Shown in pieces: positions 19,079-33,332 of a DNA stretch of 35,205 bases; position 1 is the stretch's first letter; each line of letters starts with the position of its first letter. The notes under the pieces are model-generated. The model was not told the DNA's origin, did no database searches, and was given only the letters and a program-made list of their open reading frames with translations. This DNA comes from Candidatus Baltobacteraceae bacterium (GTDB lineage: Bacteria; Vulcanimicrobiota; Vulcanimicrobiia; Vulcanimicrobiales; Vulcanimicrobiaceae). Made by a program: the position numbers and the translations under genes. The DNA lies in assembly GCA_035502855.1 (NCBI GenBank), contig DATJTX010000037.1, positions 1-35,205 of the forward strand. The letters are read 5' to 3'.

Positions 19079-19504
19079 ATGAAACGAGAACTTACCGCGA
19101 GCCTGCTCGCCGCAGCGTTTGCGGCCGCCCTGGCGGCTCCGGCAATCGCGCAACAGCAGCCGGTGCAGCAGACCCAACAAACGACGACGACCACCACCAC
19201 GACCACGCTGGGACCGAACGGTCAATACGGCGATCCGGTCTGCGGTGATTGGGCAGGCGGCGTGTGGACGCCGAACGGGCATTGCCCCGGCTACACGGTT
19301 GGACCTCGTCGCGCGCGAATCGCCGGAACGATTACGGCCGTACGCGGCCACCTCGTAACCGTGCAACTGGCGGATCGCACGCTGGTGATCAATGACCAAC
19401 CCGCGCTCAACCGCGAAACCAGCGGCCGCGTGGCGGTGGGACGACAGATCATAGCCTATGGCTACTGGCGTGACGGAAACTTTTACGCCACGGCTCTGGA
19501 ATAG
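19079..19504 (+). CDS. Exported protein with a Gln/Thr-rich linker
   Basis: This protein has 141 residues from ATG 19079. MKRELTASLLAAAFAAALAA then PAIAQ is a clear signal peptide. A low-complexity Gln/Thr stretch (residues about 23-41, nine consecutive Thr) follows, then a compact domain with ARIAGTITAVRGHLVTVQLA resembling small beta-barrel (DUF5666-like) modules. Probably periplasmic or surface-bound; function unknown. An earlier in-frame start at 18791 is rejected because it would run through the cupin gene and bury the signal peptide. A terminator follows 27 bp after the stop. Confidence 0.72.
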   Translation: MKRELTASLLAAAFAAALAAPAIAQQQPVQQTQQTTTTTTTTTLGPNGQYGDPVCGDWAGGVWTPNGHCPGYTVGPRRARIAGTITAVRGHLVTVQLADRTLVINDQPALNRETSGRVAVGRQIIAYGYWRDGNFYATALE

Positions 19505-27558: not shown

Positions 27559-28446
27559 CTAAAGTCGCGCGGCTTCGCTCGCGCTCGTGAGCAGAGGCGC
27601 CAGTAGGGCGCGGAGTTTTTCGGGTTCGGCGAGGAACGCATCGTGGCCGTGATCGCTGTGTAGTTCCAGGTAGCGTGCGCCGAGACGTTGCGCGGCGGCG
27701 CGAACGTCTTGCGGACGGAAGAGCCAATCGGACGAGATGCCGACGAAGGTGACGTCGGGCCCGGGCGGCAGCGTGCGATCGCGCACGTCGAAGCTGTCCA
27801 TCGCGTGCGTGAGCGCGACGTACGCCGCCGGATCCATCCGCGCGATGAGTTTGTCGCCCTGATGATCGAGGTAGCCTTCGACATCGAAGCGTGCGGGGTC
27901 GCGCCGGTCGGGTTTGCGGCCGTACCGCTGCGTGAAGAGCTCTTCGCTCTTGTAGGTGAGCATCGCGATCTTACGCGCGAGCGCAAGCCCGCGCACCGGA
28001 TCGAGCGCGATCGCATCGCGCTGCACGGCGTTGAGCGCGATGCCCATCGCCGAGTGATGATCGTGCGCGCCGACCACGATCGCCCGTTCGACGCGCTGCG
28101 GCGCATCGAGCGCCCACTGCAGCGCCTGCATGCCGCCCAGCGAACCGCCGATCACGACCGCCAGCCGTTCGATTTCGAGCGCGTCGAAGATACGCTGGTG
28201 CGTCTGGACGATGTCACGCACGGTAGTACGGCGAGGAGCGAGCGCGTTGATGCCGATGATGGCGTAGCGGTTGCGGGAGAAGAACGATTCGTCTCCTCCC
28301 GCAATTCCGGGCCACCATTCGGCGACGCGGCTATTCCCCGTCAGCGCGTGCGGCGCGAAGACGGCGTTGCTCTTGTCCGCGTTGAGCTCGCCGTCGATCG
28401 TGACGCGAAAGCGCAGGTCCCCAACGGGAACCTCCAGCTCGCGCAC
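27559..28446 (-). CDS. metX: Homoserine O-acetyltransferase (or succinyltransferase), MetX type
   Basis: Activates homoserine for methionine synthesis. It has 295 residues from GTG 28446, 2 bp after the metY stop, somewhat shorter than the usual 340-380 because the lid region is brief. FAPHALTGNSRV opens the family pattern. Nucleophile elbow is GGSLGGMQALQWAL. Asp is in GISSDWLFRP and His in HSDHGHDAFL. Acyl donor specificity (acetyl versus succinyl) cannot be read with confidence; pairing with metY favours acetyl. Last gene of the thr/met operon. Confidence 0.9.
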   Translation of the reverse strand: MRELEVPVGDLRFRVTIDGELNADKSNAVFAPHALTGNSRVAEWWPGIAGGDESFFSRNRYAIIGINALAPRRTTVRDIVQTHQRIFDALEIERLAVVIGGSLGGMQALQWALDAPQRVERAIVVGAHDHHSAMGIALNAVQRDAIALDPVRGLALARKIAMLTYKSEELFTQRYGRKPDRRDPARFDVEGYLDHQGDKLIARMDPAAYVALTHAMDSFDVRDRTLPPGPDVTFVGISSDWLFRPQDVRAAAQRLGARYLELHSDHGHDAFLAEPEKLRALLAPLLTSASEAARL

Positions 28447-28448
28447 GG

Positions 28449-29717
28449 CTACGACGCGAGCGCCTGGTCGAGGTCGGCGATGATGTCGCGCTTGTCTTCG
28501 ATGCCGACCGAGAGCCGAATCGTGGACTCGTCGACCCCGCTCTGCAAACGCTCCTCGGGCGTGAGCTGCTGATGCGTGGTGCTGGCGGGATGAATCACCA
28601 GCGACTTCGCATCGCCCACGTTAGCGAGCAGGGAGAAGAGCTTGAGCCGATCGATCACCTGCTTCGCGCGCGCGGCATCACCCTTGACGCGGAAGGTCAG
28701 AATCGCGCCGGCGCCGTTCGGCAGATATTTTTCCGAACGCGGGTACGCGACCGAGACGACCTGCGGGTGCCGCTCGAGGAACTCGACGACGGCGAGGGCA
28801 TTCGAGCTGTGGCGCTCGACCCGCAGGCCCAGCGTTTCCAGGCCCTGGAGCAGCAGCCACGCGTTGAACGGCGAGAGCGCCGCACCGACGTCGCGCAGCA
28901 ACTGCACGCGCGCCTTCAAGATGTACGCGATGTTGCCGAAGACCGGCGCGTACTGCAGGCCGTGATACGAAGGATCGGGATCGACGAATTCTTTGAAGCG
29001 CGGGTTGTCGCCCCAATCGAATTTGCCGCCGTCCACGATCACGCCGCCGATCGCGGTGCCGTGTCCGCCGATGAACTTCGTCGCCGAATGCACGACGATG
29101 TCGGCGCCGAAATCGATCGGACGCAGCAGATACGGCGTGGGCAGCGTGTTGTCGACCACCAGCGGCAAGCCGTGACGGTGCGCGAGATCGGCGTAGAGCT
29201 CGACGTCGAGCACGTCGATCTTCGGGTTGCCGATCGTTTCGGCGAAGAGCGCCTTGGTGTTCGGGCGGATCGCCTGCTCGACCGCGAACGGATCGTTGAA
29301 ATCGACCAGCGTCACGTCGACGCCGAAGCGCTTGAGCGTGTGGGCGAAGGCGTTGTAGGTGCCGCCGTAGAGCGAGTTCGAGCTGACGACGTGATCGCCG
29401 CTGCGCGCGAGATTGAGGATCGCGTAGACGACCGCGGCTTGCCCGCTCGCGACCGCCAGCGCGGCAGCGCCGCGTTCGAGCGCGGCGACGCGCTGCTCGA
29501 AGACGTCGGTCGTGGGATTCATGATCCGGGTGTAGATGTTGCCGAATTCTTCGAGGGCGAAGAGTTTGCCGGCGTGTTCGGTCGAGTCGAACAGATACGA
29601 GGTCGTTTGATAAATGGGAACCGCGCGCGCTTTGGTCGCGGGATCACCGTTGTGGCCGCCGTGAATGGCGAGCGTGTCAAAGTGTGGAGTTTGTTCTTGC
29701 TCCAGGGTGGCGCTCAT
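28449..29717 (-). CDS. metY: O-acetylhomoserine sulfhydrylase
   Basis: PLP enzyme making homocysteine from O-acetylhomoserine and sulfide (direct sulfhydrylation). It has 422 residues from ATG 29717, with AAAGGAAA about 9 bp upstream. [48 protein letters not shown] and the PLP-lysine block [14 protein letters not shown] are diagnostic; [18 protein letters not shown] closes the family pattern. It sits 24 bp after hom and 2 bp before metX, completing homoserine to homocysteine in three adjacent genes. Confidence 0.95.
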
Positions 29718-29741: not shown

Positions 29742-30866
29742 TCATGAGAACGCAGTTTCAACCTGCGAGACGGGAGCTTCGAGGAGGCTATCATCCCACA
29801 GCGGATAGCGTGGGAGTTCTGGATGGCGCGGCAGATGCTCGAAGAGCGGCGCGATGTCGAGCGCCGGTTCGAGGGCCGGGTAATGCACGGCGCGCTGATT
29901 GGCGAGGTCGCGCAGCGCGGTGATGACGTCGCCGAGCACGGCCGAGGCGGTGGGAAAACCGCCGGCGCCGGTGCCGGAGAGCAGAAGCGCGCCCGCATCG
30001 CGCGAGACCATGCGCACGACGTTTTCCGGTCCGCTCGCGAGCGCGAACGGATGCGTTTCGGGAACGAGGACCGGGGCGACCTCACCGCGCGCGGCGTTGG
30101 CGCTGCGCGTCGCGGCCGCGACCAGGCGAATGCGGTAGCCGAGCATTTGCGCGCGGGCAACGTCGCGTTTGCTCACGCTGCTGATCCCATTGCGGCGCAG
30201 ACGCGGCGAAATGACCGCCATTTGAAACGCGAGCTGCATCAAGAGCGCGAGTTTGTGGGCGGCATCGAGGCCCTCGACGTCGGCCGAGGGATCGACTTCG
30301 GCGAAGCCGAGTTCTTGCGCGCGGCGCAGCGCGACGTCGTATTCTTCGCCGCGTTCCATCTGCGAGAGAATGTAGGTGCACGTGCCGTTTACGACGCCGC
30401 CGAAGGCGTGGACGCTGTCGCCGGCGAGCGCGTCGTCGAGCACGCGGATCACCGGAATCGCGCCGCAGGCGGCGGCTTCGTAGCGCAAGCGCGCGCCGCG
30501 CGAATGCGCGAGCGCGAAGAGGCGCGGGCCTTGGGTGGCGATGAGATCTTTGTTGGCGGTGACGACCGTGCGCCCGCGTTCGAGCGCGTATTCGAGCAGT
30601 TCGGAGGCGACTTGCGTGCCGCCGATACATTCGATGATGAGATCGACGCGCGGATCGTCGATGACGGCGCGGGCATTTTTGGTGAAGAGATGCGGATCGA
30701 TCGCGGCCGGACGCGGCTTCGACGGATTGGCGATGGCGATCGCCTGCAGGGTGTAGCGCACGCCGCTGCGGCGCTCGATCGCCTCGCGCTCGGACAGCAA
30801 GCGCTGCGCGACCGACGAGCCGACCGTGCCGCATCCGAGTAATCCGATCCCGATTGTACAGTCCAT
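29742..30866 (-). CDS. hom: Homoserine dehydrogenase
   Basis: Reduces aspartate semialdehyde to homoserine, the branch point to threonine and methionine. It has 374 residues from ATG 30866, with AAGGGGA and GGAGG upstream. GIGLLGCGTVGSSVA is the NAD(P) loop, TANKDLIATQG and AAACGAIPVIRVLDD follow, GVVNGTCTYILSQM and DPSADVEGLDAAHKLALL are the catalytic and substrate blocks. There is no C-terminal ACT domain (family length with ACT is about 430), so allosteric threonine feedback through ACT is missing. A leader peptide and hairpins precede it, suggesting control by attenuation instead. Confidence 0.94.
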   Translation of the reverse strand: MDCTIGIGLLGCGTVGSSVAQRLLSEREAIERRSGVRYTLQAIAIANPSKPRPAAIDPHLFTKNARAVIDDPRVDLIIECIGGTQVASELLEYALERGRTVVTANKDLIATQGPRLFALAHSRGARLRYEAAACGAIPVIRVLDDALAGDSVHAFGGVVNGTCTYILSQMERGEEYDVALRRAQELGFAEVDPSADVEGLDAAHKLALLMQLAFQMAVISPRLRRNGISSVSKRDVARAQMLGYRIRLVAAATRSANAARGEVAPVLVPETHPFALASGPENVVRMVSRDAGALLLSGTGAGGFPTASAVLGDVITALRDLANQRAVHYPALEPALDIAPLFEHLPRHPELPRYPLWDDSLLEAPVSQVETAFS

Positions 30867-30897: not shown

Positions 30898-30964
30898 AAC
30901 GACGCCCCCGCTGTATCGGCGGAGGCGTCGTTGGAGTGCTTTCTCGATTCCGTGTGTTACACGG
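30898..30964 (-). terminator. Candidate attenuator hairpins upstream of hom
   Basis: Two stems lie in the thrB-hom gap. One spans 30898-30932: nine perfect pairs, a mismatch, four more pairs and a 7-nt loop, followed on the minus strand by a pyrimidine-rich run (TTCTTTCTCTCTC). The other (30950-30964, CCGTGT/ACACGG, 3-nt loop) covers the stop codon of the leader ORF. A terminator-like stem with an upstream stem that a stalled ribosome would cover is the layout of amino-acid attenuation. The U-run is imperfect, so terminator strength is uncertain. Confidence 0.55.
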
Positions 30965-31040
30965 TGCTCCCAATGACCGTCCCCGCCTTATGCGTCCGCA
31001 TAATGCACATGGAACAGGTCATCATGGAGGTCTGGAACAT
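30957..31040 (-). CDS. Candidate Met/Thr-rich leader peptide of hom
   Basis: 27 codons from ATG 31040: begins MFQTSMMTCSMCIMRTHKA, then GTVIGSTV and TAA. Five Met, five Thr and two Ile codons make up nearly half the peptide, which are the end products of the hom branch. It lies between thrB (stop at 31054) and the hairpins before hom. No Shine-Dalgarno is visible, so translation may be coupled to thrB. Inner ATGs (31025, 31022) are alternatives. It may also be chance; support is from composition and position only. Confidence 0.45.
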   Translation of the reverse strand: MFQTSMMTCSMCIMRTHKAGTVIGSTV

Positions 31041-31053
31041 TTCGGACAGGCTA

Positions 31054-31965
31054 TCATGCCGCTTTGCGCTCCGTCAAGTACCGGCGCGAAACCAGGCCGC
31101 GCGGTGCGAAGGGCAGCCGGTAGCTCCGGCTGGCGATCCCGGCGGCGGCAAAGCAGGCTTCGATGCGGGCGGCGAGCGGGCGCCATGCGACGCGGTCGCG
31201 GATGAGCGCGAGTACGCTCGGGCCCGCGCCGGAGAGGGCGATGCCGATGATTTCGGGGGCATCGAGCGCGAGCGCCGCGGCGAGACCGGGGACGACCGCC
31301 GCGCGCTGCGGCTGATGGAAACGGTCGCGCATCGCGTCGCGCAGGGCGTTCCAATTGCCGGAGGCGAGCGCGGCGCCGAGCAGCGCGACGCGCTGCAAGT
31401 TGAAGACGACGTCGGCTTTCTCGTACTGCAGCGGCAAGAGCGCGCGCGCCGCTTTGGTGGCGAGTTCGAAGTCGGGCACGACGACGATCGCGCGCAGATC
31501 GCTCGGCGCGGCGAGTTTGATGCTTTCGCGCGACGAGGCGGCGATCGCGATGCCGCCGTAGACGGCGGGCAGCGCGTTGTCGGGATGACCCTCCAGTTCG
31601 CAGACGCGGTGCGCGATCGCGTCGCGGTCGAGCTGCATGCCGTGCGCGCGGGCTGCGATCGTGACGCCGAGCGCGCGCGCCGCGGCGCTCGAGCCCAGAC
31701 CTTTGCCCAGCGGAATCGCGTTGACGAGCTGCACGCGAATGCGCGGGAGCGTCATGTTGACCGAACGCATCGCGGCAATGAGCATGCGCTCGAATCCGGG
31801 GTGCGTGGGCCGTTCCGGTCCGCCGAATTCGATTGCGAAACGATCGGCCGGTTCGACCATGGCGCGCGCACGCAGATCGAGCGCGATGCCGACGCAATCG
31901 AACCCAGGCCCGAGATTCGCACTCGACGCGGGCACACTGACGACGAACGCGCTACGCAACGGCAT
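31054..31965 (-). CDS. thrB: Homoserine kinase
   Basis: Phosphorylates homoserine for threonine synthase. It has 303 residues from ATG 31965 (MPLRSAFVVSVPASSANLGP), overlapping the thrC end by 14 bp; longer upstream frames lie within thrC. SVPASSANLGPGFDCVGIAL is the GHMP N-terminal block, PLGKGLGSSAAAR the ATP-binding GLGSSAA loop, and GIALSGAGPSVLAL the third GHMP motif. Gene order thrC-thrB-hom reverses the common hom-thrC-thrB order. Confidence 0.95.
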   Translation of the reverse strand: MPLRSAFVVSVPASSANLGPGFDCVGIALDLRARAMVEPADRFAIEFGGPERPTHPGFERMLIAAMRSVNMTLPRIRVQLVNAIPLGKGLGSSAAARALGVTIAARAHGMQLDRDAIAHRVCELEGHPDNALPAVYGGIAIAASSRESIKLAAPSDLRAIVVVPDFELATKAARALLPLQYEKADVVFNLQRVALLGAALASGNWNALRDAMRDRFHQPQRAAVVPGLAAALALDAPEIIGIALSGAGPSVLALIRDRVAWRPLAARIEACFAAAGIASRSYRLPFAPRGLVSRRYLTERKAA

Positions 31966-33136
31966 GGACCTTGTCACCCTGAGGTGCGAGCGCGTTCGCG
32001 CGAGCCTCGAAGGGCCGCGCATCTTTGAGAACGTGCCCGGTGAGAATCGCGACGACGTCGGCATCGGGAGCAATCGTGTCACCACTGTCACCCTGAGCCG
32101 ACACCACACTGTCACCCTGAGCCTGTCGAAGGGCGCGCACGCCCGCGAGCGACGCGGCGGAGGCCGGTTCGCAGCCGATGCCTTCGCGTCCGATCTGCGC
32201 TTTCGCATCGAGGATCGCATCGTCGCCGATCGCAAGTTCGATGCCGTTGAAGCGCTCGAGTGCGCGCGAGGCGCGGCTGCGCGATTTCGGATCACCGACC
32301 GCGATGGCACTGGCCGTCGTGTCGACGCCGCGCTCGGCGCGAATCAGCGCGATGCGCGGGAGTTTGTCGATCAGCCCGAGCGCGAGCGCTTCACGGAAAC
32401 CTTTGCTGATCGCGGAGATGTTGCCGAGGTTGCCGCCCGGCAGCGCGATCCAATCCGGTACGCTCCAGCTGCGCGCTTCGAGGATCGCGAAGGCCGCGCA
32501 CTTCTGACCTTCGATGCGATAGGCGTTGACGGAGTTGACGACCGCGGCGTCGCGCACGTCGGAGAGCGCGGCGAAGGCGTCGTCGAAGGAACCGTCGACC
32601 TCGATGAGCTGCGCGCCGTACTCGCGCATCTGCGCGAGCTTCGCATCGCTGACGCGGCCGCGCGGCACGATCGCGTAGGCGTCGAGCCCGGCGCGCGAGG
32701 CGTAGGCGGCCATCGACGAGGCCGTGTTGCCGGTGCTGGCGCAGACCACGCTGCGCGCGCCGGCGGCTTTGGCCGCCGAGATCGCGACCGTCATGCCGAG
32801 ATCCTTGAACGAGCCGGTGGGGTTCATGCCCAGGTGCAGGTAGGCGAGGCGATCGACGCCGGCGTAGCGCGCGCCGGGCGCGGAGTCGTAGAGCGGGACG
32901 TTGCCCTCGGCCAGCGAGACGATCGCGGCTGCGGGGATGGGCGGGAGCAGCTCGCGCCAGCGCCACACGCCGCTGGCGAAGAGCGGCTCGAACGAGGCGC
33001 GTCGCTCGCGCACGACGCGCCGTAGCCCGATCGGGTCGAGCCGCAGTTCGCCGAGGACGAACTCGGGCAACCCGCCGCACCGGCAGGGTTCGAGGGGGTC
33101 GGCGACCGCGCCGCAGTCGCTGCATTCCACGCGCAT
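31952..33136 (-). CDS. thrC: Threonine synthase, with REP-like sequence in its 3' part
   Basis: PLP enzyme making threonine from O-phosphohomoserine. It has 394 residues from ATG 33136, with GGGAG 5 bp upstream (a GTG at 33151 is less well spaced). An N-terminal zinc-ribbon-like CSDCGAVADPLEPCRCGG precedes the PLP-lysine block LGMNPTGSFKDLGMTVA, then CASTGNTASSMAAYASRAG and ALPGGNLGNISAI. Near the C-terminus ALRQAQGDSVVSAQGDSGD is encoded by a tandem REP-like repeat, and the last 25 residues by another. The encoded chain stays open, so the repeats are tolerated or add a surface loop. Confidence 0.93.
   Translation of the reverse strand: MRVECSDCGAVADPLEPCRCGGLPEFVLGELRLDPIGLRRVVRERRASFEPLFASGVWRWRELLPPIPAAAIVSLAEGNVPLYDSAPGARYAGVDRLAYLHLGMNPTGSFKDLGMTVAISAAKAAGARSVVCASTGNTASSMAAYASRAGLDAYAIVPRGRVSDAKLAQMREYGAQLIEVDGSFDDAFAALSDVRDAAVVNSVNAYRIEGQKCAAFAILEARSWSVPDWIALPGGNLGNISAISKGFREALALGLIDKLPRIALIRAERGVDTTASAIAVGDPKSRSRASRALERFNGIELAIGDDAILDAKAQIGREGIGCEPASAASLAGVRALRQAQGDSVVSAQGDSGDTIAPDADVVAILTGHVLKDARPFEARANALAPQGDKVHAVA
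31971..32017. repeat. REP-like palindrome in the thrC 3' end
   Basis: TTGTCACCCTGAGGTGCGAG...GCGAGCCTCGAAGGG: the TGTCACCCTGAG and TCGAAGGG ends of the repeat family with a palindromic centre (GCGCG around TT). It encodes the last residues of ThrC and ends near the thrB start. Confidence 0.6.
32085..32133. repeat. Tandem REP-like repeat inside thrC
   Basis: The 15-bp unit CTGTCACCCTGAGCC occurs at 32085-32099 and 32109-32123, and the second is followed by TGTCGAAGGG. In ThrC this reads as ALRQAQGDS and SAQGDS on the minus strand. The reading frame is preserved. Confidence 0.7.
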
Positions 33137-33158: not shown

Positions 33159-33188
33159 GAAGCCCCGCACCAATCGGTGCGGGGCTTC
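33159..33188 (-). terminator. Threonine-operon attenuator terminator
   Basis: A perfect 13-bp stem (33159-33171 with 33176-33188) and 4-nt loop, very GC-rich in its core, lies 24 nt after the leader-peptide stop and about 20 nt before thrC. On the minus strand it is followed by TTGCATTG, a weak U-tract, so termination may depend on the very strong stem or on Rho. Confidence 0.8.
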
Positions 33189-33212
33189 GTAAGCTGGTCC
33201 AGATCTCGCGCT

Positions 33213-33293
33213 TTAGCCTACGTCAACCCTACACCGAACGACAGTGGTCGTGGTGGTGGTCGTCGTGGTCGTCGAAACGAACATCGAGATCAT
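33213..33293 (-). CDS. thrL: thr operon leader peptide with ten consecutive Thr codons
   Basis: 26 residues from ATG 33293: MISMFVS, ten Thr in a row (ACG, ACC and one ACT codons), then VVRCRVDVG and TAA at 33213. This is the logic of the E. coli thr leader: ribosomes stall on Thr codons when charged tRNA-Thr is scarce, changing the folding of the RNA so that the hairpin at 33159-33188 does not form and thrC is transcribed. AAGGTAG precedes the ATG by 9 nt and may serve as ribosome site or as part of the -10 box. Too short for standard gene callers. Confidence 0.85.
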   Translation of the reverse strand: MISMFVSTTTTTTTTTTVVRCRVDVG

Positions 33294-33302
33294 GGTGCCG
33301 CT

Positions 33303-33332
33303 ACCTTACCAGGGCCAGGCTGGCCGGGTCAA
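33303..33332 (-). promoter_or_regulatory. Candidate thr operon promoter with internal palindrome
   Basis: TTGACC (33327-33332), 18-bp spacer, TAAGGT (33303-33308) on the minus strand. Transcription would start a few bases before the leader ATG. The spacer holds a perfect 13-bp palindrome, GGCCAG-G-CTGGCC (33313-33325), which may be an operator in addition to attenuation. Confidence 0.45.

Follow-up and report, generated by a model that had tools for sequence, protein, structure and literature searches.

Why should ten threonine codons stand in a row in a short open reading frame (ORF) just upstream of the threonine synthase gene, thrC, in a phylum far from the proteobacteria? The locus lies in a stretch of 35,205 nucleotides (hereafter the window), positions 1 to 35,205 of contig DATJTX010000037.1 of a Candidatus Baltobacteraceae bacterium, whose 3.33-Mb assembly is called G000 below. 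It is best read as a ribosome-mediated transcription attenuator (probability roughly 0.87), with charged tRNA-Thr as the signal, thrC-thrB as the genes under control and read-through into hom-metY-metX. Its parts are the following:

33303-33332, minus strand: promoter read in the sequence, with the -35 box TTGACC (33332-33327), an 18-nt spacer and the -10 box TAAGGT (33308-33303).
33213-33293, minus strand: leader peptide ORF of 26 codons, MISMFVSTTTTTTTTTTVVRCRVDVG (the T10 leader), with its ATG at 33293, 9 nt past the -10 box, and without a Shine-Dalgarno motif.
33243-33272, minus strand: ten consecutive Thr codons (ACG ACC ACG ACG ACC ACC ACC ACG ACC ACT), the proposed stall site.
33217-33238, minus strand: segment 2, the 5' side of the antiterminator (TTCGGTGTAGGGTTGACGTAGG), inside the leader ORF and 3' of the Thr codons.
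33174-33192, minus strand: segment 3, the 3' side of the antiterminator together with the 5' arm of the terminator.
33159-33188, minus strand: terminator hairpin with a perfect 13-bp stem and a 4-nt loop (-28.0 kcal/mol), followed by TTGCATTG.

An earlier note on this DNA had described a leader ORF with ten Thr codons, a stop, 24 nt, a perfect 13-bp stem before thrC and a promoter upstream, and all of these can be read directly. Its limits are exact as well: the -35 box begins at 33332 and the stem ends at 33159. The peptide has the pattern MISMFVS-T10-VVRCRVDVG; its stop codon ends at 33213 and lies 24 nt from the hairpin. Neither the promoter nor the terminator was detected by a simple promoter and terminator scan of the window, the former because its -10 box TAAGGT is too far from consensus and the latter because its tail, TTGCATTG, is a poor U-tract. 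The leader region folds much more stably than its shuffles do (z of -4.1). Ten consecutive ACN codons are matched once in the window and never in 100 shuffles of it, and runs of at least eight Thr codons occur at two places only in the assembly. The second place, 19181-19206 on the plus strand of the window, has nine Thr codons in an ORF with a signal-peptide-like start and resembles an ordinary linker of an exported-looking protein.

A leader ORF and a terminator precede thrC in 15 genomes from two families of the order, within Ca. Eremiobacterota, a phylum now named Vulcanimicrobiota, and in 12 of the 15 the peptide is rich in Thr or in Thr and Ile. Nine of these leaders are those of G000, G001, G007, G011, G033, G077, G092, G095 and G096; seven of them have 10-13 Thr codons, that of G092 has 9 and that of G011 has 5. 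Thr/Ile leaders, such as MYAMIITTTTTITRGFGLWAGAALQ, precede thrC in three genomes of the second family (G037, G038 and G039), and weak leaders with 3-5 Thr codons in three g21 genomes (G021, G089 and G090). Relatives carry orthologues of the ORF at 33213-33293; they keep the TTGAC and TAnnnT of its promoter, and in all of them a T-rich tail follows a strong, GC-rich stem. The stem has one mismatch in G001, and the tails of the relatives are better than that of G000, for example TTCTTTTTTG in G096. The arrangement of leader and terminator is more than chance. Alignment in relatives, which the earlier note had put forward as the test that could refute its reading, shows both the Thr run and the hairpin to be conserved. 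The distribution is patchy: a Thr leader directly before thrC was not found in many family members, and in most other genera thrC follows directly after another gene (ilvD or tsaD, by reading of the sequence) with no Thr leader. Six g9 genomes have a Thr/Ile leader before hom instead of thrC. Outside the phylum, none of 76 thrC loci (mostly Acidobacteriota) has a Thr leader within 700 bases of the gene.

A low-complexity ACG/ACC repeat that happens to stand before a constitutive terminator, with no regulatory meaning, would also give a Thr run, and the Thr-rich linker at 19181-19206 is a case of such a stretch elsewhere in the window. The third positions of the Thr codons vary, however (G 56, C 40, T 15), with the reading frame kept; the run is flanked, in several genera, by a promoter and an antiterminator that are both conserved; and the leaders of other biosynthetic operons carry codons for their own amino acids. 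A constitutive terminator with a simple repeat is very improbable, and it was discarded on the grounds of codon pattern, reading frame and conservation.

The antiterminator had not been looked for in the earlier note. In G000, segments 2 and 3 form a duplex of -24.5 kcal/mol, versus -28.0 for the terminator, and only 2 of 1000 shuffles do as well. The same pairing is found in every thrC leader, at -20.9 to -30 kcal/mol, with 2-54 of 1000 shuffles as good. The segment 2 sequence CGGTGTxGGGTTGA is almost invariant as RNA, yet it is read in different frames, giving V-R-C-R-V-D in G000 and F-G-V-G-L in G007 and G092; the constraint therefore appears to be on the RNA and not on the peptide. Conservation of this kind, at the level of RNA and across frames, is what attenuation would predict. 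In the second family and in g21, both antiterminator strands differ in sequence yet still match, and a strand mostly fits its own partner better than a foreign one. The RNAalifold consensus over 12 cassettes from several operons is also the antiterminator. Its cells are paired in 90.9% versus 30-52% when slid, with 11 two-sided changes, a test that leans somewhat towards structure since the 12 cassettes came from the hits of a terminator-containing model. A run of amino-acid codons, an intrinsic terminator and a mutually exclusive antiterminator overlapping the leader ORF, three sequence marks of a leader-peptide attenuator, are present together, and the conservation and the antiterminator support the attenuator reading of the earlier note.

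The leaders appear to share an unusual start. The distance from the end of the -10 box to the ATG is 9 nt in the T10 leader, which has no Shine-Dalgarno motif, and 7 nt in a second leader described below. Over 50 leaders, the -10 box of the best promoter lies 6-11 nt before the start in 49, as against 24% for shuffled upstream sequences; the former count is slightly inflated by leader starts picked with the promoter in view, which those of the thrC and hom leaders were not. A Shine-Dalgarno-like motif is found in 2 of the 50. From the position of the promoter we infer that transcription starts at or near the leader ATG. Because the -10 box stands so near the ATG and a Shine-Dalgarno motif is lacking, as is common to 49 of the 50, translation of the leaders probably proceeds from mRNA that is leaderless or nearly so.

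In the proposed mechanism, the transcript would begin at the leader ATG or a few bases upstream of it, and a ribosome would load on this leaderless or nearly leaderless 5' end. When threonine suffices, the ribosome would reach the stop codon and cover segment 2; segment 3 would then fold into the 13-bp terminator and transcription would end before thrC. With little threonine, the ribosome would stall in the Thr run, leaving segment 2 free to pair with segment 3; the terminator would be blocked and the operon transcribed. Calculated foldings in which a ribosome masks part of the leader are consistent with these steps: 10.9 antiterminator pairs are expected with the ribosome at Thr codon 1, 4 or 8, and 0.1 with the ribosome at the stop codon, where the terminator is unopposed. 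The antiterminator is also preferred, at 10.9 pairs, in the calculation for nascent RNA without a ribosome. Read-through may then be the default of an untranslated leader, unlike the textbook case.

A stalled ribosome might instead act on translation, with the hairpin making the thrC start more or less accessible, in the manner of the leaderless cysteine upstream ORFs (uORFs) of mycobacteria. The start of the T10 leader does resemble these uORFs (Shell 2015, PMC4633059; Canestrari 2020, as cited in PMC9094748), and the U-tract of G000 is poor. Such control is nevertheless quite unlikely: the Shine-Dalgarno-like GGGAG of thrC lies outside the hairpin, the partner of segment 2 is the 5' arm of the stem and not the thrC start, and all relatives keep the strong GC-rich stem and the T-rich tail.

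The operon that would be controlled contains five genes, with a second set of leader elements between thrB and hom:

31952-33136, minus strand: thrC, threonine synthase (TIGR00260, 207.8 bits, cut-off 167.1), with its ATG at 33136 and GGGAG upstream of it.
31054-31965, minus strand: thrB, homoserine kinase (TIGR00191, 215.9 bits, cut-off 168.25).
31048-31077, minus strand: candidate second promoter, at the 3' end of thrB, with TTGACG (31077-31072), 18 nt and TAGCCT (31053-31048).
30957-31040, minus strand: second leader ORF, MFQTSMMTCSMCIMRTHKAGTVIGSTV, with its ATG 7 nt past the -10 box.
30899-30931, minus strand: hairpin of the second terminator (ACGACGCCTCCGC...GCGGGGGCGTCGT; -25.5 kcal/mol), just upstream of hom and with a tail rich in T and C.
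29742-30866, minus strand: hom, homoserine dehydrogenase (PF00742 and PF03447; NF004976).
28449-29717, minus strand: metY, O-acetylhomoserine sulfhydrylase (TIGR01326, 639.6 bits, cut-off 495.1).
27559-28446, minus strand: metX-like homoserine O-acyltransferase (NF001209, 219.7 bits, below the NCBIfam cut-off of 331; Abhydrolase_1).

The order behind the T10 leader, thrC, thrB, hom, metY and metX-like, is identical in G007, G011, G033 and G092; it is thrC-thrB-hom in g21 and, within the stretch read, thrC-thrB in the second family (f2, G037). The TIGR00260 match bears out the earlier naming of thrC as the downstream gene. Structural genes have Shine-Dalgarno-like motifs upstream (GGGAG before thrC, GGAGG before hom). 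The closest named relative of thrC outside G000 is from a Candidatus Eremiobacterota MAG, with 70% identity over the best segment. In two relatives (L111 in G095 and L112 in G092), the thrC match runs in a frame with one internal stop (TAG, TGA); these may reflect a match that continues past the gene end, or assembly errors.

The hom-metY-metX part has a putative promoter of its own, followed by a second leader of attenuator-like form in which Met, Cys and Thr codons abound. This leader is conserved in seven genomes (G000, G007, G011, G033, G077, G092 and G095); the peptides differ and yet are of the same kind, for example MFATTTAMMCSMCRMQMRTAWVVMESTV in G033, and Met makes up 23% of residues 2-18, Thr 16% and Cys 12%. 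Its antiterminator is good in G007, G077, G011, G092 and G095 (5-24 of 1000 shuffles as good), and four of the five distinct second leaders other than that of G000 reach 24/1000 or less; it is weak in G033 (95/1000) and, in G000 itself, no better than shuffles (232/1000). A Met/Cys leader, MSMPTSRMFCMCCWYDHAARMAFA, also stands in another genus (G029), before a gene that begins like hom and was named by its N-terminus only. The second leader probably works in the same way as the first, with Met, Cys and Thr as the amino acids sensed. The earlier note had suggested that attenuation may be the main feedback on hom, which lacks an ACT domain. The lack holds, as Pfam gives no ACT match in hom; the T10 leader can hardly be the only RNA-level feedback, given the second leader before hom.

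Similar cassettes are found before other operons. They were collected as hits of two covariance models, with hits below about 30 bits taken as unreliable, as palindromic terminators also score on the opposite strand. Model R1 returned nine strong leaders and weak matches that turned out to be further leaders; some of its hits were rejected as leaders, being plain gene ends, a tRNA or ordinary terminators. Model R2, built on the 12 cassettes, has matches at E <=0.001 in 52 of 149 genomes from the phylum, nearly all of them members of the family of the window. Besides those before thrC and hom, G000 has three more cassettes: i) a Leu/Val-rich leader, MLVTSLLLLALALVGRSASNRLGLTTA, before leuA (L171; G000:C20, near 7356); ii) a Leu/Ile/Val-rich leader, MLLTALLIVVLVLISRSSPNRLGLTTA, before ilvB (L186; G000:C31, near 2771); and iii) a Met/Cys leader, MSNLHVMCHMCLVPAPDRRRLASRISK, before ssuA, a gene for an SsuA-like sulfonate-binding protein (L172; G000:C25, near 17866). 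In other genomes, cassettes with fitting codons precede ilvB, pheA, aroA, ilvA, ilvC, hom and a sulfite reductase-like gene, where ilvA, ilvC, the later cases of ilvB and pheA, and sulfite reductase were named by first residues only. The codons fit the operon throughout: Leu/Val/Ile before leuA, ilvB, ilvA and ilvC, Tyr/Phe/Trp before pheA and aroA, Met/Cys before ssuA and, in g9, Thr/Ile before hom. A single genome, G009, has leaders before hom, ssuA, the sulfite-reductase-like gene (peptide MLLCCCLLMACPASVARRSASS), ilvA, ilvC and aroA (L199, L200, L203, L204, L205 and L163).

The common antiterminator and terminator sequence suggests that the cassettes spread by duplication. There is about an even chance that the Vulcanimicrobiales/Baltobacterales control most of their genes for amino acids and sulfur through a single kind of cassette with the codons swapped, and that an attenuator sensing Met, Cys and Thr is nested before hom. 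The cassette so defined consists of a TTGAC promoter, a leaderless leader peptide, a segment 2/3 antiterminator and a terminator, and its codons are for Thr, for Leu/Ile/Val, for Tyr/Phe/Trp, or for Cys or Met.

The element would work like E. coli thr attenuation. Both have a Thr-rich leader peptide and a segment 2/3 antiterminator set against an intrinsic terminator, upstream of threonine genes, and the f2 family even has a Thr/Ile leader, IITTTTTIT. Unlike in the E. coli thrLABC operon, thrC comes first, the leader is likely leaderless and has no Shine-Dalgarno motif, metY and metX are part of the operon, and a second leader precedes hom. Descent from the gammaproteobacterial thr leader, by old inheritance or by transfer, would concern the origin of the element only and not its function. 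Local alignment does show segment 2 and the terminator to resemble the E. coli leader (best score 25, in G011, reached by 1 of 1000 shuffles, and 21 in G000, reached by 5 of 1000), and the Rfam Thr_leader model (RF00506) matches at full length with 27.7 bits. This score stands against a gathering score of 55 bits; a search at the gathering threshold gave no match, and relatives score 26-32 bits at relaxed E-values, some on the wrong strand. Membership of RF00506 was rejected on these grounds, several sub-threshold matches of equal score being on the wrong strand (G011, leuA). The alignable part is confined to the terminator/antiterminator core, where terminator and antiterminator have to be complementary and likeness in one therefore entails likeness in the other, and no excess is seen in G007 (314/1000) or in G037 of the f2 family (935/1000). 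With no Thr leader at the 76 thrC loci outside the phylum, mostly of Acidobacteriota, common descent is unlikely.

Among systems outside the proteobacteria, leaderless cysteine leader peptides are known in mycobacteria (Shell 2015, PMC4633059), and such cysteine-codon uORFs have been proposed or reported as an attenuator (Canestrari 2020, as cited in PMC9094748). Like them, the T10 leader is a short ORF rich in codons for the amino acid of its pathway, and it probably starts at or near the 5' end of the mRNA. The mycobacterial type is marked by Cys codons near the stop and by leaders with no conserved terminator hairpins (Seliverstov 2005, PMC1262725); the T10 leader differs in its amino acid, with Thr codons, and in its conserved terminator and antiterminator. 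The actinobacterial trp and ilvB attenuators also have a leader peptide and a terminator before amino-acid operons; for the threonine and methionine operons of Actinobacteria, the same study reports no conserved RNA structures (PMC1262725). A 2010 survey counted Proteobacteria and Actinobacteria as the only groups with known leader-peptide systems before it added Firmicutes (PMC2965389). The open-licence papers searched yielded no description of attenuation in Vulcanimicrobiota.

If this reading is right, threonine synthesis is under leader-peptide control also in a phylum distant from the proteobacteria, a Met/Cys leader-peptide attenuator joins the known systems as a candidate, and attenuation on leaderless mRNAs is combined with intrinsic terminators, with ribosomes loading by a route other than that of E. 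coli. Lying where the routes to threonine and methionine part, hom could respond to both amino acids through a pair of attenuators in its operon. The likely leaderless start and the family-wide cassettes were absent from the earlier note, and this wider result, of likely leaderless attenuators throughout a family and a Met/Cys/Thr leader inside a thr operon, is more surprising than the T10 leader itself. The family has a cultured member, Vulcanimicrobium alpinum WC8-2 (PMC9758169), which makes the system testable.

Some further short ORFs were seen in addition to these cassettes. Three g21 loci (L179, L217 and L219) carry leader-like ORFs (MSSAFTLATITMLGSVSDRRWMATA and similar), and the leader-like ORF of G021 precedes an ORF with aspartate-kinase C-terminal, ACT and Trans_reg_C domains. 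At L181 (G020:C93, near 138823), a Cys-containing short ORF, MSSRPLVCCSACPMHRFGVRPI, with a promoter and a hairpin, stands before the gene of a flavoprotein related to fumarate reductase and is possibly a cysteine attenuator.
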